64,000 nucleotides of DNA from Pseudomonas vanderleydeniana. Its GTDB lineage: Bacteria; Pseudomonadota; Gammaproteobacteria; Pseudomonadales; Pseudomonadaceae. Below, in pieces: positions 30,274-39,236 of this stretch. A program made the position numbers and the translations under genes. Numbering within the stretch: position 1 is the first letter of the stretch; every line of letters begins with the position of its first letter. The notes below the pieces were generated by a model. The model was not told the origin of the DNA and searched no databases. It was given only the letters and a program-made list of their open reading frames with translations. The stretch covers positions 2,344,001 through 2,408,000 of the forward strand of contig NZ_CP077093.1 of the NCBI RefSeq assembly GCF_014268755.2. Reading direction: 5' to 3'.

Positions 30274-30663
30274 TCATTGTGGGGTCGTGGCATGATCGTT
30301 GAAGACGATCGCGGTGAAGTCGGCCTTCAGTTCTTCACCGAATTCGAAAATGGTCTCGTCCTCCTCGTCGTGGTACCAGTTCACCTGCATTTCGTTACCC
30401 GACTGGGCGGCCTGGTCCAGGGCGTCGAAGATGCTGAACAGCATCTTGGTGCTCGAGCTGTTGAAGTAGGCCAGCGCAATGTGGGTGGTGATCACGGTGT
30501 CCTCGCGGGAGGCGAGGTAGGTACGCAGTTGCTGGATGACCGGGGCATAGAAGGCGGCGGCATTTTCCGGGTAGGACTCGCCCTTGATCGTCAGCAGGTC
30601 CTGATCGAAACGAAAGTCGACTTCCGGCGAGGTGGCGGTTGCTTCGATGTAGAAATTGTCCAT
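30274..30663 (-). CDS. siaC: SiaC-like regulatory phosphoprotein (DUF1987)
   Basis: 129 residues. The N terminus FYIEATATSPEVDFRF and the central ALAYFNSSSTKMLFSIFDAL match the SiaC/DUF1987 family. The phosphorylation site of SiaC is a threonine in this loop, so Ser69 to Thr72 are the candidates here. Phosphorylated SiaC is inactive; the PP2C phosphatase frees it to activate the cyclase. It sits 19 bp after the kinase gene. Confidence 0.9.
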   Translation of the reverse strand: MDNFYIEATATSPEVDFRFDQDLLTIKGESYPENAAAFYAPVIQQLRTYLASREDTVITTHIALAYFNSSSTKMLFSIFDALDQAAQSGNEMQVNWYHDEEDETIFEFGEELKADFTAIVFNDHATTPQ

Positions 30664-30682
30664 GGTGATTGCGTCACTCTGA

Positions 30683-31252
30683 TCAGATAGTTGCTTTGAG
30701 GCAGAACAGCGTGGTGCCCGGTTCGTCCGCTCTTGGGAAAAACGCGAACTCCAGCGGTGCGCTGGCGTCGCGCGCCATGGTCAGGAACCCCAGGCCCGCG
30801 CCCTTGCTTTCCGCGGGTGTCTCCGCCCGCAGGGTGACCTTGTAGGCCTGCTTGATCTCTTCAAGGGACATGTTGCGCAGCGGTTCGAGCTTTGCCCGCA
30901 GGCGGTCGACGTCGTGGGTGGCGATGGGGTTGGCGCACAGCATCAGGTGGCGGTCACCTTCGCTGCTGATGCACACCGCGCCCTGGCGCAGCGCCGACTC
31001 TTCGCCGGGCTCGTTGGGCAACGAGTCGGAGGAGTAGTGAATGATGTTCTGCGACAGTTCGACGAAGGAGGAGAACAGCTTGCGTCGCGTCGGTCCGTTC
31101 ACCCCGGAGATCTCCAACTGCAGCCTGACCACCTCGGCCATCGCGCTGACGATGGTGTGGGAGAAATACCCCATGTGATAGAAGATCACGTTGCGCTGCT
31201 GGGCCAGATCGAAGAAGTGGTAGTCGGGGTGGGCAGCATTCGAATTGATCAT
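30683..31252 (-). CDS. siaB: SiaB-like protein kinase (GHKL-type)
   Basis: 189 residues. FSSFVELSQNIIHYSSDS is an N-box-like helix of a GHKL ATPase fold, and AESKGAGLGFLTMARDAS is the G-rich lid, as in SiaB. In the characterised system SiaB phosphorylates SiaC and so lowers c-di-GMP output. Its start overlaps the phosphatase stop by four bases. Confidence 0.88.
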   Translation of the reverse strand: MINSNAAHPDYHFFDLAQQRNVIFYHMGYFSHTIVSAMAEVVRLQLEISGVNGPTRRKLFSSFVELSQNIIHYSSDSLPNEPGEESALRQGAVCISSEGDRHLMLCANPIATHDVDRLRAKLEPLRNMSLEEIKQAYKVTLRAETPAESKGAGLGFLTMARDASAPLEFAFFPRADEPGTTLFCLKATI

Positions 31253-32493
31253 GGTCGGTTTCCAAGACGCGCACAGAAAAGGGTGAGGTCGTCACGCCGG
31301 GCCTGCTCTCCTTGCCAATTGGCCAGCGTGCGTTGCAGGGCATCGCAGATGACGGTCGCCGGCTGATTGCGGTGCTCCAGTATCGTGTTGAACGCCTTGC
31401 TCTTGCCGAAGGCGATGTTGCGCGGGCCGCCGATCTGGTCGGTCAGGCCGTCGGTGGCGATGAACACCAGGCTGGCCGGGGCCAGCGTGATGCGGTTCAG
31501 CGGCCATTGGTAGTCGATGGCGCTGTCCACGTAGCCGACGCCGACCCGTTGTCCGGCCAGGGTTTCCATCTGCTCGGCGCTGGGTGGCAGGACGTGGAGG
31601 GCCATGCGCGCACCGGCGAAACTCAGGGTCTGGGTGGCGTTGTCGAACCAGAGGAAGGCGGCGTCCAGACCGTCGTCGGATTCGGGCGTGCCCTCGCTGC
31701 CATGCACTTGTCCCAGCAGTTCCTTGACGCTGCGGTTGACCGCCGCCAGCAATGCGCCGGGGTCGCGGGGACCGAGCCGTGCGAGGGCCTGGGTCAGTGA
31801 CGAGGAGGCGATGAGGGTCATGAATGCGCCGGGAACGCCGTGGCCGGTGCAGTCGGCGATCGCGCCGAACCAGCCATCGTGGTACGCGCAGAAGTGATAG
31901 AAGTCACCACCGACGACATCCCGCGGTTCCCATAGCAGGACCGCGTCTTCCAGGGTCGACTTGAGGGTATCGCGCGAGGCGCGCAGCATCGAGCGCTGGA
32001 TAACGCTCGCGTACTCGATGCTCTGCATGATCTGGCGATTCTTCTCGGCCTGCATCGCGGCGACCACCGCCATCAGTTGCAGGCCGCTGCCGAGTCCGGC
32101 GAAGCGTCCGTCACGGGTGACGATGAAACCGTCGGACAGGGCCTTTTCGCCGGACTCGACGGTCTTGAAGGTCAGTTCCTCGATGCTCATTCCGGCGTCG
32201 ACGATCAGCGGCTCCTTGTCCATGAAGGCAATGCAGCTTTTCTTGTCGTACAGCTCGCGATGAAACGGCTTGCTCATCATCGACAGGAAGATGTTGCGAT
32301 TGATCAGGCCGATGGGACGGGCGTCTTCGACCACTGCCAGGCACACCATTTCCTTCTGCGAACTGAAGGTCTCCATCACCAGGGCGTTGGTGCTGTCGGC
32401 CTCGATCGCCGGCATCTGCATGCAGAGATCACCGGCACAACGGTGGTCTCTGGAGCGTTGTGGACGCATGAAGGAGAAGCTTTCTGCACGCAT
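31249..32493 (-). CDS. PP2C-type phosphatase with N-terminal CBS-like domain (SiaA-like variant)
   Basis: About 414 residues from ATG 32493; in-frame starts at 32523 (GTG), 32469 and 32421 are possible and the choice is uncertain. The C-terminal SpoIIE/PP2C domain is clear: VVGGDFYHF, ADCTGHGVPGAFMTLIASS and the late FIATDGLTDQIGG metal-site motif. The N-terminal 150 residues look like a CBS-type pair (MVCLAVVEDARPIGLINRNIFL; DGFIVTRDGRFAGLGSG). Characterised SiaA of P. aeruginosa is a longer membrane protein with periplasmic sensor and HAMP; no membrane segment is present here. The input is therefore cytoplasmic, possibly a nucleotide. Confidence 0.88.
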   Translation of the reverse strand: MRAESFSFMRPQRSRDHRCAGDLCMQMPAIEADSTNALVMETFSSQKEMVCLAVVEDARPIGLINRNIFLSMMSKPFHRELYDKKSCIAFMDKEPLIVDAGMSIEELTFKTVESGEKALSDGFIVTRDGRFAGLGSGLQLMAVVAAMQAEKNRQIMQSIEYASVIQRSMLRASRDTLKSTLEDAVLLWEPRDVVGGDFYHFCAYHDGWFGAIADCTGHGVPGAFMTLIASSSLTQALARLGPRDPGALLAAVNRSVKELLGQVHGSEGTPESDDGLDAAFLWFDNATQTLSFAGARMALHVLPPSAEQMETLAGQRVGVGYVDSAIDYQWPLNRITLAPASLVFIATDGLTDQIGGPRNIAFGKSKAFNTILEHRNQPATVICDALQRTLANWQGEQARRDDLTLFCARLGNRP

Positions 32494-32621
32494 GCTGGGA
32501 GTCGCCGGGCAAAGTGAAGGCACAACGCTATCTATCCAATATGACGCTTGTATGACGATCTCGCGTTTGCTCCCCGAACCTGCTGCTTCCTGGCAGAAAT
32601 GACCTGGCCGGCCTGCGGCTG

Positions 32622-32699
32622 TGTATCACAGTGTGTACGCAGCATTGGCTGATACATCCCGCGACTTCCTGGCCGGTTGCCCGACACAGAGGGGATACA
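32622..32699 (+). promoter_or_regulatory. Motif pair upstream of the bufferin operon: TGTATCACAGTGTGT and GGATACA
   Basis: TGTATCACAGTGTGT at 32622-32636 and GGATACA starting at 32693, with a further TGATACA at 32650. The same 15-mer, on the strand of the GST gene, occurs at 39222-39236, with GGATACA starting 70 bp after it (71 bp here). Both elements point toward their genes. A common regulator is the natural explanation. Confidence 0.65.
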
Positions 32700-32785: not shown

Positions 32786-33061
32786 ATGAAGAGCAAATAC
32801 GCCGCCCTCGCAGCCACCCTCGCCATTTCCCTCGGCGCGTTCGCGGTCAATGCCCACGCCGCCGATGACCAGGCGCCCAAGGAGAAGTGCTACGGCGTGT
32901 CCAAGGCCGGCCAGAACGATTGCGCCGCCGGTGCCGGCACCTCTTGCGCGGGTACCGCCAAGACCGATTACCAGGGCAACGCCTGGGTCCTGGTGGACAA
33001 GGGCACCTGCACCCAGATCAAGACACCCAAGGGCTTCGGCTCCCTGACGGAGCAGCCATGA
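32786..33061 (+). CDS. bufA1: Bufferin precursor, BufA1-like (DUF2282)
   Basis: 91 residues with a signal peptide ending VNAHA. The mature core starts [22 protein letters not shown] and has four Cys (35, 46, 54, 75), the DUF2282 pattern. In bufferins, the MNIO enzyme BufB with BufC converts core cysteines to thiooxazole-type heterocycles and the exported peptide binds copper. AAGGAGAAGACCC upstream gives a strong ribosome-binding site. It is first in an operon that also encodes a second precursor, DoxX, BufB and BufC. Modification here is inferred from the family. Confidence 0.9.
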
Positions 33062-33495
33062 ACCGCACCTGCGGGGCCGTGACCGCCGGCCTCGGCCGGC
33101 TGTTGCCCGAGTCCCTGTTGTTGCTGGTGGCCCGGGTCGGGATCGCTTCGGTGTTCTTCCTGTCGGGACGGACCAAGGTCGAGGGCCTGCTGACCATCAA
33201 GCCAACGACCTACTTCCTGTTTCGTTCGGAGTACGCATTGCCGCTGGTGTCGCCCGAGTTGGCGGCCCACCTGGCGACCTATGCCGAGCACCTGTTCCCG
33301 ATCCTGCTGGTGCTGGGGTTGCTGACCCGGCCGGCGGCGCTGGCCCTGCTGGGCATGACGGCGGTGATCGAGGTGTTCGTCTACCCCGACGCCTGGCCGA
33401 CGCACCTGACCTGGGCTGGCCTGCTGTTGCCACTGATCGCCTACGGCGGCGGCAAGTGGTCGCTGGACGGGCTGTTGCGCCGCGGATCGAACTGA
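33058..33495 (+). CDS. DoxX family membrane protein
   Basis: 145 residues with four hydrophobic segments ([42 protein letters not shown]). It overlaps the bufA1-like stop by four bases. DoxX proteins are common partners in bufferin operons, where they have been named BufD; their role there is not settled, with electron transfer or redox support at the membrane suggested for other DoxX proteins. Confidence 0.88.
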
Positions 33496-33541
33496 CCCGG
33501 CGCTCCAACGCCCTCTCAACCGATGATTTTCAACCACAACA

Positions 33542-33560
33542 TCAAGCCATGACGGCTTGA
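33542..33560 (+). other. Small hairpin between the DoxX gene and the hydrolase gene
   Basis: TCAAGCC-ATGAC-GGCTTGA is a perfect seven-base-pair stem, 12 bases before the next start codon. It could modulate the mRNA ratio within the operon; there is no T tract. Confidence 0.5.
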
Positions 33561-33571
33561 GGAGAAGCAGC

Positions 33572-34339
33572 ATGCGCAAGTTACCCATCCTGGCCCTGAG
33601 CGCCCTGGCCCTGGCTGCACCGATGTTCGCCAGTGCCGCGGCGGAGCCGGCCGCGCCGGCAGGTGCCAAGAACATCGTCATCGTCCATGGCTCGTTTGTC
33701 GACGGCTCCGGCTGGCGGGTGGTTCACGACATCCTGATCCACAAGGGCTACCACGTCACCGTGGTGCACCAGCCGGCCACCAGCCTGGACGCCGACGTCG
33801 CCGCCACCCGGGAAATCCTCGACCAGCAGGTCGGCCCGGTGGTGCTGGTCGGCCACAGTTCCGGCGGCGCGGTGATCGGTATTGCCGGTGACCGCGACAA
33901 GGTCAAGGCACTGGTCTATGTCGCCGGCCTGCAACCGGAAGTCGGCGAGACCCTGGGCCAGTTGCTGAGCTCCATGCCGTCGCCGAGCAACGATATCCAT
34001 GCCACCCGTGACGGCCTGCTGTTCGTCGATCGGGCCAAGTTCGGCGAGGACTTCGCCGCCGACCAGACCACCAACCGCACCGACTTCCTGGCGGCCTCCC
34101 AGGTACCGGCCGCTGCCGCGACCTTCGGCACCCAGAACTGGGCGGCCGCCTGGCACAAGAAACCCAGCTACGGGATCGTCGCCACCGATGACAAGGCCCT
34201 GAACCCGGACCTGCAGCGCTGGATGTACAAGCGTGCCGGTTCCAAGGTGACCGAGATCAAGGCCAGCCACACCGTGTACATCTCGCAGCCTGAGGCGGTG
34301 GCGAAAGTCATCGAGCAGGCCGCGCTGAACGCCAAGTAA
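33572..34339 (+). CDS. Exported alpha/beta hydrolase inside the bufferin operon
   Basis: 255 residues from ATG 33572 with a signal peptide (MRKLPILALSALALAAPMFASA). The fold is clear: oxyanion region VIVHGSFVDGSGWR, nucleophile elbow GHSSGGAV and catalytic His in IKASHTVYIS. It resembles the EstC/pyrethroid-hydrolase branch of alpha/beta hydrolases. It lies between the DoxX gene and the second bufferin precursor, which is not part of the minimal bufferin operon. A periplasmic role connected to copper or redox stress is only a guess. Confidence 0.88.
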   Translation: MRKLPILALSALALAAPMFASAAAEPAAPAGAKNIVIVHGSFVDGSGWRVVHDILIHKGYHVTVVHQPATSLDADVAATREILDQQVGPVVLVGHSSGGAVIGIAGDRDKVKALVYVAGLQPEVGETLGQLLSSMPSPSNDIHATRDGLLFVDRAKFGEDFAADQTTNRTDFLAASQVPAAAATFGTQNWAAAWHKKPSYGIVATDDKALNPDLQRWMYKRAGSKVTEIKASHTVYISQPEAVAKVIEQAALNAK

Positions 34340-34389
34340 ATCCACCGACCCACATCGCTTCACCCACTTCATTTATCTGGAGATACACC

Positions 34390-34656
34390 ATGACCACTAC
34401 CGCTTCCCGCCTGAGCCTCGCCACTGCCGCCGCCCTGATCGCCCTGGCGTCCGCGTCCTTCACCGTCTCGGCCAGTGCCGCCGACAAGGAGCAACCGGGT
34501 CGCTGCTACGGCGTCAACAGCTGCAAGGGTGAAAGCCTGTGTGCCACCGCCAAGAACGACTGCAAGGGCCTCAACGGCTGCAAGGGCCAGGGCGTCGTGG
34601 TGAAAACCCCGAGCGAGTGCCTGAAGGCCGGCGGCACCCTGACCGAGCCGAAGTAA
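34390..34656 (+). CDS. bufA2: Bufferin precursor, BufA2-like
   Basis: 88 residues with a signal peptide ending VSASA. The mature part has six Cys (39, 45, 51, 58, 64, 77) in the spaced pattern RCYGVNSCKGESLC...NDCKGLNGCKG, which is the BufA2 type with repeated CKG units and not the DUF2282 type. GGAG lies 12 bases before the ATG. It is directly upstream of the MNIO gene and is the most probable main substrate of BufB/BufC. Confidence 0.9.
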   Translation: MTTTASRLSLATAAALIALASASFTVSASAADKEQPGRCYGVNSCKGESLCATAKNDCKGLNGCKGQGVVVKTPSECLKAGGTLTEPK

Positions 34657-34699
34657 ACACCACAGGGTGAGGGGGCCGATGGGTGAGCCCCCATTGTTC

Positions 34700-34730
34700 G
34701 ATCGTTCCCACGCCGAGCGTGGGAACGATC
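34700..34730. repeat. Perfect 13-bp inverted repeat between bufA2 and bufB
   Basis: GATCGTTCCCACG, the loop CCGAG and CGTGGGAACGATC form a perfect hairpin. This sequence type (GTTCCCACG...CGTGGGAAC) is a dispersed repeat in many Pseudomonas genomes. Inside an operon it may act as an RNA stability or attenuation element separating the abundant precursor from the enzymes. Confidence 0.8.
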
Positions 34731-34795
34731 ATCACGGGTTGCGGGGGGCACCGACTCACGCACCCGCCCACACTTCTCTCAAGCGAGCACCTGCG

Positions 34796-35644
34796 ATGTC
34801 AGTATCCACTTCTTTCTCGGGCTTCGGCCTGGGCCTGCGCAAGGAACACTATCGGGACTTCCTGGAGACCGAGGTTCCGGTCGATTTCGTCGAAGTCATC
34901 TCCGAGAACTTCATGGTCGACGGTGGTCAGCCACGACACATCCTGCGCCAGGTCCGCGAGCGGCATCCGGTGGTGCTGCATGGCGTCTCCATGTCCATCG
35001 GCTCGGCCGACGGCCTGAACCCGGACTACCTGCGTCGCCTCAGGCAACTGGTCGACGAGATCGACCCGCTGTTCGTTTCCGATCACCTGAGCTGGTCGCG
35101 CATCGGCGGCTTCAACTCCCACGACCTGCTGCCGGTACCCTACACCGAAGAGGCGCTGGAGATCGTCTGCCGCAATATTTCCATGGCCCAGGATGTCCTC
35201 GGCCGTTCCATGCTGTTCGAAAACCCGTCGAGCTACCTGGCCTTCGACGGTGCCTCGATGACCGAATGGGAGTTCATCGGCGCCATGGCCGAACGCACCG
35301 GCTGCGGGCTGTTGCTCGACGTCAACAATGTCTTCGTCAGTGCCAGCAACCACGGTTTCGATGCCCTGGCCTTTCTCGACGGGTTGCCCGCCGACCGCGT
35401 GCGGCAGATGCACCTGGCCGGGCACAGCCAGGGCGAGCACCTGCTGATCGATACCCACGACAGTCCGGTTTGTGAAGATGTCTGGGCACTGTATGCCGAG
35501 GCGGTGTCGCGGTTCGGCACGGCCGCCACCCTGATCGAGCGCGACGACCACATCCCGCCGCTGGCCGAACTGCTCGCGGAGCTGGACATCGCCCGTTCCA
35601 TCGGTGCGGCGAATGCCCGTGGCGGACTGCGGAGGGCGGTATGA
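34796..35644 (+). CDS. bufB: MNIO (DUF692) multinuclear iron oxygenase, BufB
   Basis: 282 residues from ATG 34796. The TIM-barrel DUF692 family is recognised by GFGLGLRKEHY at the start and by a full set of metal-ligand candidates: His62, Asp96-His97 (FVSDHLSW), Glu142 (FENPSSY), Asp175/Asn177 (LLDVNNVF), His186, His210 (LAGHSQG), Asp219/His221 and Glu248. These enzymes use two or three iron ions and O2 to modify Cys residues of RiPP precursors. The stop overlaps the bufC start by four bases. Confidence 0.95.
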   Translation: MSVSTSFSGFGLGLRKEHYRDFLETEVPVDFVEVISENFMVDGGQPRHILRQVRERHPVVLHGVSMSIGSADGLNPDYLRRLRQLVDEIDPLFVSDHLSWSRIGGFNSHDLLPVPYTEEALEIVCRNISMAQDVLGRSMLFENPSSYLAFDGASMTEWEFIGAMAERTGCGLLLDVNNVFVSASNHGFDALAFLDGLPADRVRQMHLAGHSQGEHLLIDTHDSPVCEDVWALYAEAVSRFGTAATLIERDDHIPPLAELLAELDIARSIGAANARGGLRRAV

Positions 35645-36387
35645 ACCTGGCCCAGTTGCAGCAGCAGTTCCAGCAGTGGCTGGTGACCGGTTCCGACGAG
35701 TTTGCCCGCTCCCTCGGGGACGGCCTGGAGGCGGGCCTGGCGGTCTACCAGAACAACTACCGGGCACAGCTGGTAGGTTGCCTGGAGCAGGCATTTGCGC
35801 AGGTGCGCCGGTGGATCGGCGACGAGGCCTTTCTCGCGGCGGCGATCGCCCATATCGACCGGCAGCCACCCCATGCCTGGACGCTGGATGCCTACCCCGA
35901 GGGCTTCCACGCCAGCCTGGTCGAATTGTTCCCGAACAATCCCGACCTGCATGAACTGGCCTGGATCGAGGCGGCGGTCAATGACGCTTTCGTTGCCGAG
36001 GACGCCCAGGCCCTGTCGCTGGACGCCCTGGCGACCATCGATTGGGACACCGCGCGGTTGCGCCTGACACCGTCGTTGCGCAGCCATGCATTGACGACCA
36101 ATGCCGAACCGATCTGGGCGGCGCTGTGCGAAGAGACACCGCCGCCGGAAAGCGAAATGCTCGCCGAGCCGGGTGGGGTGATCGTCTGGCGTCGGCAGTT
36201 CACTTCACGCCTGCGTCCGCTGGAAGCCCTGGAATACCAGGCGCTGCTGCACCTGCAGGCAAATGGCAGTTTCGCCGCCCTGTGCCAGTGGCTGGTCGAG
36301 CGTCTCGGCGAGTCCGAGGGCGTCGCGCGGGCCGGTGCGCTGCTGGCCGGCTGGCTCGCCAGCGAACTGATCGTCGCGATCGACTGA
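35641..36387 (+). CDS. bufC: DUF2063 protein, BufC partner of the MNIO enzyme
   Basis: 248 residues. The N-terminal DUF2063 domain reads LQQQFQQWLVTG... AGLAVYQNNYRAQLVGCLEQAF, and the C-terminal part would form the wHTH-like RiPP recognition element that binds the precursor. It is required with BufB for modification in studied systems. The ATGA overlap couples it to bufB. Confidence 0.93.
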   Translation: MNLAQLQQQFQQWLVTGSDEFARSLGDGLEAGLAVYQNNYRAQLVGCLEQAFAQVRRWIGDEAFLAAAIAHIDRQPPHAWTLDAYPEGFHASLVELFPNNPDLHELAWIEAAVNDAFVAEDAQALSLDALATIDWDTARLRLTPSLRSHALTTNAEPIWAALCEETPPPESEMLAEPGGVIVWRRQFTSRLRPLEALEYQALLHLQANGSFAALCQWLVERLGESEGVARAGALLAGWLASELIVAID

Positions 36388-36420
36388 CCCCCCATTTTCT
36401 CTTTGCCAAGGAACTGCATC

Positions 36421-37470
36421 ATGTCCGAGTACCTGTTCAATCGTCGTCGTTTCCTGTTGTCCGCCGCCGCCGGTGCAGCCGCCATCGGCCTGGCCGACGT
36501 GCCGTCGGCGCTGGCCTCGACGGGGCAGGGCACGACCCCCCGCACCGGCAAGCCGCTGGCGCACCTGCCTATTCGCCAGGTGCGTACCGACGTGCTGGAC
36601 ATCGGTTATCACGAGACCGGCCCGGAGAACGGTCGCCCGGTGATCCTGCTGCACGGCTTTCCCTACGATATCCACAGTTACGCCGAGGTCGCGCCGTTGC
36701 TCGCGGCCCAGGGGTTTCGGGTGATCGTGCCGCACCTGCGTGGACACGGCAGCACCCGTTTCCTCGACAGCGCCACGCCGCGCTCAGGCCAGCAGGCGGC
36801 ACTCGGCCAGGATGTACTGGACCTGATGAACGAGCTGCATATCCCCGAGGCGGTGCTTGCCGGCTATGACTGGGGCGGTCGTGCGGCCTGCGTCGCGGCG
36901 GCGTTGCGGCCAAGCCGCTGCGTGGGGCTGGTGTCGGTCAACGGCTACCTGATCCAGGACATCGCCAAGGCCGCCAGCCCGTTGCCGGCCGAGGTCGAAT
37001 GGGGGTTGTGGTACCAGCATTATTTCCAGACCGAGCGTGGGCGTGCGGGGCTGGCGGCCAATCGTCGCGACATCGCGCGAATTCTCTGGCGCAACAATTC
37101 GCCGACCTGGCACTTCGACGACCCGACCTTCGAGCGGGCGGCCGAGGCGTTCGACAACCCCGATTACGTCGATGTGGTCATTCATTCCTATCGGCACCGC
37201 ATGGGGCTGGCCGAGGGCGATCCGAACTATGCCGAAGCCGAGCAGAAGCTTGCCCTGTTGCCGGCGCTCGGCGTGCCGACCATCACCCTCGACGGCATGG
37301 CCGACGGGGTTGTTCCGGCCACCGATGGCCGGGCGTCCGCGGCCCGCTTCAGCGGGGCGCGCAGCCACCGGCAGGTTCCCGGTGTCGGCCACAACCTGCC
37401 CCAGGAGGCGCCCGGGGTCTTCGCCGATGCGGTGGCCGACCTGGTGCATGGCGGCCAATGGCGCACCTGA
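36421..37470 (+). CDS. Tat-exported alpha/beta hydrolase (epoxide hydrolase/dehalogenase type)
   Basis: 349 residues from ATG 36421 (AAGGA upstream). The N terminus FNRRRFLLSAAAGAAAIG is a twin-arginine signal. The catalytic domain has LLHGFPYDIHSYAEVAPLL, the nucleophile elbow AGYDWGGRAA with an Asp nucleophile as in epoxide hydrolases and haloalkane dehalogenases, and the His in GVGHNLPQEAPG. It follows bufC by 33 bp and is probably cotranscribed. Its link with bufferin is unknown. Confidence 0.88.
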   Translation: MSEYLFNRRRFLLSAAAGAAAIGLADVPSALASTGQGTTPRTGKPLAHLPIRQVRTDVLDIGYHETGPENGRPVILLHGFPYDIHSYAEVAPLLAAQGFRVIVPHLRGHGSTRFLDSATPRSGQQAALGQDVLDLMNELHIPEAVLAGYDWGGRAACVAAALRPSRCVGLVSVNGYLIQDIAKAASPLPAEVEWGLWYQHYFQTERGRAGLAANRRDIARILWRNNSPTWHFDDPTFERAAEAFDNPDYVDVVIHSYRHRMGLAEGDPNYAEAEQKLALLPALGVPTITLDGMADGVVPATDGRASAARFSGARSHRQVPGVGHNLPQEAPGVFADAVADLVHGGQWRT

Positions 37471-37730: not shown

Positions 37731-38399
37731 ATGAAACGCTGGATCGTCAATAACCGTGGGCTGCTGATCTTTCTCCTGTGTTTCGGCATCTTCCGGACGT
37801 CCATGGCGGACTGGAACCCGATCCCCTCGGGTTCCATGCGTCCAACCCTGCTGGAAGGCGACGTGGTGCTGGTCAATCGGCTGGCCTATGACCTCAAGCT
37901 GCCCTTGAGCGATATTTCCCTGGCGGCGTTGGCTAACCCGCAGCGCGGTGACGTGGTGACATTCACCTCGCCCAAGGATGGTGTACGGCTGATCAAGCGG
38001 CTGGTCGGCGTCCCGGGGGATGTGCTGGAAATGCGTAACGAGGTGCTGTTCGTCAATGGCGTTGCGGCGCACTACAGCGACAATCAGGAAATCACCGAGC
38101 CAGGTGGCCATGGCGTGAATATCCCCGGGGTATCGGTAACCGAGGCGTCGGACAACAGCGTGCGCCGGGTGCAGTTTCTGCACGGCGTGGCGGCTGCCCG
38201 TGATTTCGGACCAGTCACGGTACCGGCGGACAGCTATTTCATGCTCGGCGACAATCGCGACGACAGCGCCGACTCGCGCTACATCGGCTTCGTGCCACGC
38301 CGCCTGCTGATCGGCCGGGCCCACCATATCGTAGTGTCGGCCGACATCCTCGGCCACTGGATGCCACGTCTGGACCGTACCGCCAAGCCGATTCTGTAA
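37731..38399 (+). CDS. Signal peptidase I (additional, short form)
   Basis: 222 residues from ATG 37731 (AGAGGT upstream), shorter than housekeeping LepB of gamma-proteobacteria (about 280-325). One membrane segment (7-24) precedes the catalytic Ser35 in PIPSGSMRPTLLEGD; Lys89 in VRLIKRLVGVPGD is the general base, and GDNRDDSADSRYIGFV is box E. It has no lepA next to it, so it is not the main copy. Its position after the bufferin operon, rich in exported proteins, may be coincidental. Confidence 0.9.
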   Translation: MKRWIVNNRGLLIFLLCFGIFRTSMADWNPIPSGSMRPTLLEGDVVLVNRLAYDLKLPLSDISLAALANPQRGDVVTFTSPKDGVRLIKRLVGVPGDVLEMRNEVLFVNGVAAHYSDNQEITEPGGHGVNIPGVSVTEASDNSVRRVQFLHGVAAARDFGPVTVPADSYFMLGDNRDDSADSRYIGFVPRRLLIGRAHHIVVSADILGHWMPRLDRTAKPIL

Positions 38400-38465: not shown

Positions 38466-39086
38466 TCAGGGCTGGGTCGACTTGAAGCTCGGCAGCGCCT
38501 GCACCTGTTCCCACCACTGGGCAAAGCCCTCGACATCAAACAGCCGCTCGGCATCCGGGGTCTGCGCGATGTAGCTGCAGAACGGTACCAGGTAGAAGTC
38601 TGCCAGGGACTGGGTCGGGCCGGCGATGAAGCGGTCCTGGCCCCTGATCTTCATCAGCTCGCGCAGCACCTGGCGCGACTTTTCGATACCGGCCTCGCGG
38701 GCAGCCTCGTTCTTGCCGCCGATGAAGTCGGGGAACAGGTGATAACCGGCCACCGCCACCAGCGCGTTGTAACCGTAGGAATCGTAGATGCCGATCGCCA
38801 TGTTGGCGCGGGCCCGACCCTGGGCGGTGTCCGGCAGCAGCGACGGGCCCGGCAGGACTTCGTTCAGGTAGTGGGTGATGGCACCGGTTTCGATCACCTT
38901 GAAGCCGTCATGTTCGAGCACTGGCACCTTGCCGAATGGATGACGCAGCAGGTGTTCGGGGTGATGGGGCTCGCCCTGGATGACGTCCACCGGGACCTGC
39001 CGATAGTCCGCGCCTTTTTCGGCGAGAAGCATTCTGACGGTACGGACATAGGTGCTGCCGCTGAAGCCGTAAAGGGTGATGCTCAT
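38466..39086 (-). CDS. Glutathione S-transferase
   Basis: 206 residues from ATG 39086 (GGAG eight bases upstream). The thioredoxin-like N-terminal domain has ITLYGFSGSTYVRTVRMLL and the glutathione-binding FGKVPVLEHDGFKVIETGAI; the helical C-terminal domain has FIAGPTQSLADFYLVPF. It conjugates or reduces with glutathione in the cytoplasm. Its upstream region shares a 15-bp element and its spacing to GGATACA with the bufferin operon promoter, which suggests coregulation by the same stress signal. Confidence 0.92.
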   Translation of the reverse strand: MSITLYGFSGSTYVRTVRMLLAEKGADYRQVPVDVIQGEPHHPEHLLRHPFGKVPVLEHDGFKVIETGAITHYLNEVLPGPSLLPDTAQGRARANMAIGIYDSYGYNALVAVAGYHLFPDFIGGKNEAAREAGIEKSRQVLRELMKIRGQDRFIAGPTQSLADFYLVPFCSYIAQTPDAERLFDVEGFAQWWEQVQALPSFKSTQP

Positions 39087-39159
39087 GCTGATGATCTCCG
39101 TGGGGTGGTCAGTCCACCCGTCGTGGGTGACTGAGGACCGGTCTAGTTCATCGCGTCGA

Positions 39160-39236
39160 TGTATCCGGGATGTGTTCGGTGTTCGCGGAAAATCGAGTGA
39201 GTGTGTCGCCACGCAGCTGAGACACACTGTGATACA
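39160..39236 (-). promoter_or_regulatory. Motif pair upstream of the GST gene, same as in front of the bufferin operon
   Basis: Read toward the GST gene, TGTATCACAGTGTGT (39236-39222) is followed 70 bp later by GGATACA (39166-39160). The pair at 32622-32699 has the same order, orientation and nearly the same spacing (71 bp). Confidence 0.65.

Follow-up and report, generated by a model that had tools for sequence, protein, structure and literature searches.

Among the described systems closest to the locus analysed here are the bufferin operons Buf1 and Buf2, including those of Caulobacter vibrioides, which encode Sec-exported Cys-containing precursors, a BufB-type MNIO, a DUF2063 protein and a DoxX protein (PMC12452194). 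Tandem precursors and the sharing of an MNIO among several precursors are already reported or proposed there. The study does not settle whether a single MNIO-partner pair can modify more than one precursor, and it states that other conserved genes occur in bufferin biosynthetic gene clusters (BGCs) at extremely low proportions. The subject of this work is a seven-gene bufferin operon found in a 64,000-nucleotide stretch of Pseudomonas vanderleydeniana DNA (contig NZ_CP077093.1, positions 2,344,001 to 2,408,000; this whole stretch is called the window). It shares with Buf1 and Buf2 operons the components listed above and the BufA2-BufB-BufC order, but it has both precursor classes at one MNIO as well as exported hydrolases. 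An identical gene list in the same order (DUF2282 peptide, DoxX, hydrolase, short peptide, DUF692, DUF2063, hydrolase) is given as the putative BGC "Pep4" in the appendix of a study of soil isolates of the P. fluorescens group (PMC8719888, eLife 2021). The composition itself is therefore not new, contrary to a first reading made from the sequence alone, which had called it unusual. The second peptide of Pep4 is given there as having "no conserved domain", and the appendix entry comes without distribution, catalytic or regulatory analysis. The efhP-PA4106-PA4105 operon of P. aeruginosa is likewise of MNIO type, but it has three genes, a single precursor of EGKCG/EF-hand type and no hydrolase; its activation by BfmR is described (PMC8025907, PMC4148453), whereas control of the present operon by BfmR is proposed below. 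Within the literature searched, the argument from genomes with a single MNIO, the stepwise loss of catalysis in hydrolases that are kept, and an operator joining the operon to wider envelope-stress genes were not found elsewhere.

The explanation that we favour, with modest confidence, is that of a conserved dual-precursor operon of the Buf2 branch, equipped with hydrolases and induced by stress through an OmpR-family regulator, likely BfmR. One MNIO-DUF2063 pair would modify both precursors, BufA1 and BufA2, before their Sec export and, by analogy with bufferins, the products would be thiooxazole-bearing, copper-binding periplasmic peptides. The beta- and gammaproteobacterial operon would have acquired an exported protein of Ser-hydrolase fold (HydA) and, more loosely, a Tat-exported one of epoxide-hydrolase fold (HydB). 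Both may act in the envelope under the same stress, probably binding or clearing oxidised or electrophilic compounds, and many lineages may now have one or both of them working without catalysis of their own. In Pseudomonas, an OmpR-family response regulator, most likely BfmR, would induce the operon together with further MNIO operons, the adjacent gene for a glutathione S-transferase (GST), and a set of genes for redox functions, detoxification and hydrolases. The system might protect against copper or oxidants. The copper role would derive from bufferin family membership itself, while the operator common to redox and detoxification genes favours oxidant or electrophile stress in the envelope.

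Gene content and distribution of the operon

The operon comprises the following genes (coordinates in the window):

32786-33061, plus strand: BufA1, DUF2282-type bufferin precursor with 4 Cys (PF10048, 89.1 bits; cut-off 22.4)
33058-33495, plus strand: DoxX-family membrane protein (PF07681, 64.7 bits), its start inside the BufA1 stop (ATGA)
33572-34339, plus strand: HydA, alpha/beta hydrolase (Abhydrolase_6, PF12697, 78 bits), Ser nucleophile in GHSSGG
34390-34656, plus strand: BufA2, precursor of Cys-Lys type with 6 Cys and three CKG (NF050166, 89.3 bits; cut-off 60)
34796-35644, plus strand: BufB, MNIO (DUF692) maturase of the Buf2-type clade (PF05114, 371 bits; NF050167 MNIO_BufB, 384 bits, cut-off 310)
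35641-36387, plus strand: BufC, DUF2063 partner (PF09836, 70 bits), ATGA overlap with BufB
36421-37470, plus strand: HydB, epoxide-hydrolase-like, Asp nucleophile in GYDWGG, His in GHN, C-terminus GGQWRT

The family models bear out the seven-gene content (BufA1, BufA2, DoxX, BufB, BufC and two hydrolases) that had been read from the sequence alone. The start of BufB was taken as ATG 34796, the listed open reading frame beginning with GTG at 34667. The ATGA overlaps suggest that translation is coupled between BufA1 and DoxX and between BufB and BufC. Both precursors are Cys-containing, score above the cut-offs of PF10048 and NF050166, respectively, and have a Sec-like signal; the N-terminus of HydA is also Sec-like, while that of HydB carries the twin-arginine sequence RRRFLL and is Tat-like (all signals judged by eye). 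The bufABC order holds for BufA2-BufB-BufC, and DoxX, HydA and BufA2 stand between BufA1 and BufB. The host genome (G000, 7.03 Mb) encodes three MNIOs in all, the other two in ordinary Buf1 operons (BufA1-MNIO-DUF2063 at locus L002; BufA1-MNIO-DUF2063-DoxX at L003). The window BufB is 97-98% identical to the MNIOs of two P. fuscovaginae records.

An MNIO is found in 164 of 199 Pseudomonas genomes, and 15 of the 199 encode one that shares 78% identity or more with the window BufB, the next best reaching 54%. For a wider comparison, the best 80 of 554 relatives were picked from named genomes by similarity to the window MNIO (loci L034-L113), so that the counts apply to that clade and not to MNIOs overall. 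In this numbering L036 and L115 are the same locus, and L040 and L117 the same contig end. The 80 loci belong to Pseudomonas, Burkholderia/Caballeronia, Cupriavidus, Massilia, Duganella, Undibacterium, Luteibacter, Dyella, sphingomonads, Caulobacter and others, including one bin labelled Actinobacteria. The gene order of the operon recurs in Pseudomonas, Burkholderiales and Xanthomonadales; this recurrence in many species indicates that the arrangement is not due to chance. Both precursors are encoded at 69 of the 80 loci, co-directionally at 29 and divergently at 40. One precursor class per MNIO, which the sequence-only reading took as the usual form, is thus not what this clade presents. The remaining loci, contig ends among them, have BufA1 alone (4), BufA2 alone (6) or neither (1). 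A DoxX gene lies at most 6.5 kb away at 74 loci. HydA is found inside the operon at 29 loci (only as a fragment at L045), all of beta- or gammaproteobacterial and none of sphingomonad type, and a HydB-like gene follows BufC at 16. The sphingomonad loci have two precursors and one MNIO, without hydrolases. Sigma factor and NrsF genes are attributed to Buf1 and not to Buf2 BGCs in the available text of PMC12452194, whereas the mixed sphingomonad loci have both nearby. Genes of the ECF sigma factor family were seen at 45 fetched loci and NrsF-like genes at 17 (L061-L113; one representative of each was checked against Pfam).

One BufB/BufC pair and two precursor classes

The proposal of the sequence-only reading that one BufB/BufC pair serves two precursors gains support from the 69 dual loci and from genomes with a single MNIO. 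Whole-genome counts were made for 50 of the 80 genomes, and also for those of L112, L089, L064 and L083, chosen because a precursor was apparently missing; the draft genomes among them may be incomplete. A single MNIO was found in 25 of the 50 genomes. Of these 25, 24 carry one and only one DUF2282 gene, which shares the contig with the MNIO and lies within ~4 kb of it; all 24 have a BufA2 match. Since both precursors are present in genomes with a single MNIO, one BufB/BufC pair probably serves both classes. The cysteines of both precursors are highly conserved: each of the 4 Cys columns of BufA1 is kept in 86-87 of 87 rows, and the 6 Cys of BufA2 in 89 of 89.

The affiliation of BufB suggests which precursor comes first. 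In a tree of 103 BufB rows, all 90 rows from dual loci form one clade (SH-aLRT 97), sister to eight Pseudomonas Buf2 MNIOs (99) and apart from the Buf1 MNIOs; the tree was built by a quick method, leaving out six near-duplicates and 7 of 15 Buf2 loci, and carries warnings of long branches and a split outgroup. The residue following the catalytic Asp of BufB is an Asp in 86 of 95 rows, the window included, a residue tied to Cys-Lys MNIOs in the available text of PMC13097082. Clade and residue together make BufA2 the expected first substrate. BufA1 would come second, provided that it is neither left unmodified nor, in genomes with further MNIOs, handled by one of them in trans.

Several of these observations weigh against a shared maturase and suit an alternative, which we regard as improbable, in which BufB and BufC modify BufA2 only, BufA1 being an unmodified plain thiol or copper carrier or being modified in trans. 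BufB is of Buf2 type by the tree and by the residue linked to Cys-Lys substrates (PMC13097082), BufA2 lies directly 5′ of BufB, and the Sphingomonas genome G227 retains a single MNIO with BufA2 and no DUF2282 gene. The two further Buf1-type operons of the host genome could provide MNIOs acting in trans on BufA1, and a second MNIO adjoins BufA1 at L094, L099 and L107. At variance with this alternative, 24 of the 50 genomes retain one DUF2282 gene although no other MNIO was found in them, and the BufA1 cysteines are conserved throughout the rows compared. The Erythrobacter genome G249, with one MNIO and two DUF2282 genes, lacks BufA2 and also speaks for action on BufA1, although it is a metagenome-assembled genome of unknown completeness. 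G250 and G251, examined like G249 because a precursor was apparently missing, have one MNIO, one DUF2282 gene and BufA2 matches, some of the latter away from the locus.

L099 and L107 hold two complete operons back to back. The form with one MNIO may have arisen by loss of Buf1's own pair, a gain at L099 and L107 being equally possible. With genomes that combine a single MNIO and two precursor classes, and with natural losses of either class, the question left open in the literature becomes directly testable.

HydA, HydB and shortened HydB proteins

The nearest solved relatives of HydA are hydroxynitrile-lyase/SABP2-like proteins (best E 5e-8). HydA orthologues of at least 71% identity are found in exactly the 15 of 199 Pseudomonas genomes that have this MNIO clade, and at that locus (in G141 on an abutting contig end), the next homologue in the 199 genomes being 51% identical. 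HydA is fixed in the beta/gamma version of the operon. HydB is an accessory to it. The solved structure nearest to it is 5BOV, a putative epoxide hydrolase of Klebsiella pneumoniae (E 5.3e-95) and a close homologue, whose title makes no link to bufferins. The window HydB has the sequence features of an epoxide hydrolase, with Asp (GYDWGG), His (GHN), cap and full length. For the sequence-only reading, hydrolases missing from related operons or randomly placed in them would have been a refutation: the neighbourhood comparison argues against this for HydA (15 of 15 genomes), while HydB varies, being full length, dead, shortened or absent.

The catalytic triads of both hydrolases are intact in the window, but not in many of its relatives. 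HydA lies in the operon in 43 rows, which represent 42 loci, and nine of these rows have lost the nucleophile Ser (Gly in five, Asp in four), for instance in Cupriavidus, where HydB is intact. HydB lies 3′ of BufC in 25 of the 43 rows: ten are full length with the Asp, two full length without it, and 13 shortened without the His motif, which makes 15 of the 25 truncated or devoid of the Asp. L085, which has an intact full-length HydB, was excluded by the position filter and is not counted here. In L039 and L060 catalytic residues are lost in both proteins. Twelve of the 13 shortened proteins (mini-HydB) have 149-209 amino acids, that of L039 being longer through an Ala-rich linker. In these twelve the twin-arginine start is retained along with the N-terminal half of the fold, the cap and the His being gone; 11 of them also keep the C-terminal xWR(T). 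Among the shortened proteins an Asp at the nucleophile position is present only in L046, L124 and L126. The HydB of L045 ends early, and its gene may be broken. An AlphaFold prediction for a mini-HydB of 150 amino acids reached pLDDT 81.7 for the best of five models (60.7 for the worst) and pTM 0.77, and the predicted fold best matches part of 5BOV, from which mini-HydB differs by the missing cap and His. Few Cys or His were seen by eye in mini-HydB when metal binding was considered, and this role was set aside.

Are the altered copies decaying or kept? It is quite possible, though not what we favour, that the hydrolases are an ordinary active esterase and an epoxide hydrolase detoxifying electrophiles of the same stress, the dead and truncated copies being in decay. 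The intact triads of the window fit such a view, as do the paralogues, cytochrome P460, OsmC and GST genes behind the same operator (see below). Moreover, in seven of nine genomes with mini-HydB another operator copy is followed by a full-length HydB-like gene, which may make the operon copy redundant. The median dN/dS of mini-HydB (0.16; seven Pseudomonas genes, 21 pairs) is also the highest of six genes, the others being HydA (0.07), BufB (0.09), BufA1 (0.09), DoxX (0.10) and BufC (0.12); these are simple Nei-Gojobori counts on hand-picked sequence sets. Yet 0.16 is close to the value of BufC and far below 1, as under purifying selection. Frame, signal and C-terminus of mini-HydB are intact in nine Pseudomonas genomes, and all nine copies found in the 199 genomes stand at bufferin loci, the other matches listed in that search being longer frames elsewhere, except for a frame of 165 amino acids in G135. 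Likewise, the HydA gene is retained in the nine rows that have lost the Ser.

Retention of this kind would also suit a more far-reaching proposal, which we hold to be rather doubtful: the HydA and HydB folds would be non-catalytic exported partners of a dual-bufferin system, in which one Buf2-type MNIO pair modifies both precursors under BfmRS control and the selected mini-HydB perhaps receives, holds or protects the thiooxazole peptides. In a database search mini-HydB has 332 homologues (E <=1e-5); among the 120 listed, many have 149-213 amino acids and many represent longer segments of full-length relatives. The AU test is compatible with mini-HydB having arisen once (p-AU 0.146); we therefore do not claim independent losses, and the origin may be one or several. 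The series represents a stepwise record of an enzyme losing catalysis while retained in an operon.

HydA-like and HydB-like genes also occur away from MNIOs. Adjacent HydA/HydB-like pairs are found, by coordinates, in at least ten Pseudomonas genomes, and L128:4852-12158 is a cluster of HydB-like, cytochrome P460 and HydA-like genes without MNIO, followed by SDR, catalase and OsmC genes (by eye).

The operator and the genes behind it

A two-sided sequence element is found 5′ of the operon and again 5′ of a gene on the opposite strand outside it:

32622-32699, no strand assigned: putative two-sided operator, TGTATC-N4-TGTGTA ... GACACA-N5-GATACA, 87 bp 5′ of the BufA1 ATG; BfmR-box-like
39160-39236, no strand assigned: second operator copy, 68 bp 5′ of the GST gene
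38466-39092, minus strand: GST-like protein (PF02798, 72 bits), behind the second operator copy

The element 5′ of BufA1 is conserved in 17 Pseudomonas loci, the window included. The strict pattern GTGTATC-N4/5-TGTGT has two sites only in the 7.03-Mb host genome, both in the BufA1 promoter. Thirty genomes, 15 that carry the operon and 15 that lack it, were scanned with a looser two-sided pattern. It matched 21 of them: every one of the 15 operon carriers, always with a copy 5′ of BufA1, and six of those without, while the same pattern written backwards matched none of the 30. The GST gene, behind the second copy, may be a co-regulated neighbour. Two further observations concern the position of the element: in P. 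putida 700447 a second copy lies between BufA2 and BufB (L038:9878), and in Cupriavidus necator A5-1 a match lies 3′ of HydB (L051:13377).

Twenty regions around other operator copies were fetched and their neighbours named. Directly behind copies are genes for cytochrome P460 (G000), OsmC (G141), DoxX-GST-DLH (G100), DoxX (G150), formamidase with EGKCG precursor, MNIO and DUF2063 (G100), formamidase with DLH (G059), an EGKCG/EF-hand precursor (G100), an MNIO (G150) and a small exported repeat protein (G100, twice). By coordinates, eight genomes have HydB-like genes immediately after a copy, and G059 and G048 have a HydA-like gene within 0.5 kb of one. The matches at G000 5149262, in G018 and at G067 C3 look unlike the others and may be due to chance. 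A shared operator would unite the bufferin operon, other MNIO operons, exported hydrolases and redox and detoxification genes in one regulon. SCO1 and PCuAC genes, considered as members of it, stand beside a G000 copy but end before the operator, and a DsbD/AhpC-like gene adjoining G000 copies does the same.

The identity of the regulator is suggested by the P. aeruginosa system. There BfmR directly activates efhP-PA4106-PA4105, with the consensus TACAA-N3-GATACA, and efhP (PA4107, encoding EfhP) is its top target (PMC8025907, PMC4148453). The operator studied here lies, among other places, 5′ of an EGKCG/EF-hand precursor gene that resembles efhP. The P. aeruginosa genes PA4106 and PA4105 presumably encode a DUF692 MNIO and a DUF2063 protein, respectively. 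An OmpR-family regulator gene is located next to an operator copy in L180 and 3.1 kb from one in L187, where the response regulator is 90% identical to a protein named BfmR. BfmR-like regulators are present in G100 and G150, and 12 beta/gamma loci have related ones (71-77% identity) no more than ~7 kb from the dual operon. BfmR is thus the most likely regulator to act on the operator, as far as can be judged from sequence. Such control would link RiPP (ribosomally synthesized and post-translationally modified peptide) metallophores to the BfmRS system. No paper naming both BfmR and an MNIO was found in the literature search, none of the listed papers on response regulators or oxidant-stress genes was recognised as dealing with this operon, and BfmR is unmentioned in the main texts of the bufferin papers searched.

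A number of points weigh against this part of the explanation. The window sites at 32622 and 39223 match 9 of the 11 bases of the BfmR consensus, a score that 62 of 2000 shuffled versions of the upstream region also attain; the link is therefore probable rather than proven. Direct repeats of a similar kind are bound by many regulators of the OmpR family, and it is possible, if somewhat unlikely, that the operator belongs to another member of that family. The adjacent regulator gene in L180 and the one near the copy in L187 speak for BfmR, as does the efhP-like gene behind the operator; however, the L180 operator lies past the regulator's stop and that of L187 is 3.1 kb off, so that this neighbourhood alone proves little. 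The pattern is absent at 74 of the 75 loci L039-L113, all from outside Pseudomonas except L040, a contig end; the one match is that of L051. As SCO1 and PCuAC end before the operator, no copper gene is shown behind it.

Some neighbouring genes recur. A small exported protein with repeated GGSDRLQQNRVAE-like units is encoded directly behind the operator in L180:3466-3876 (minus strand) and L181:3815-4210 (plus strand). An acetamidase/formamidase gene lies 3′ of HydB in L043, L066 and L114, from three genera, and recurs behind the operator together with MNIO genes. OsmC is encoded just 5′ of BufA1 in nine Luteibacter/Dyella loci, and an OsmC-like gene is present at 14 fetched loci. In the window, a LepB-like signal peptidase I (S26) gene (37731-38399, plus strand) is located between HydB and the GST gene. 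Among the fetched loci it accompanies the operon in the window, L034 and L035 only, and it was rejected as a member of the system. No copper-specific regulator was recognised beside the operon, whose 5′ neighbour is a SiaA-like gene on the other strand; this gene is part of a segment with SiaA/SiaB/SiaC-like biofilm signalling genes (30274-32523, minus strand).

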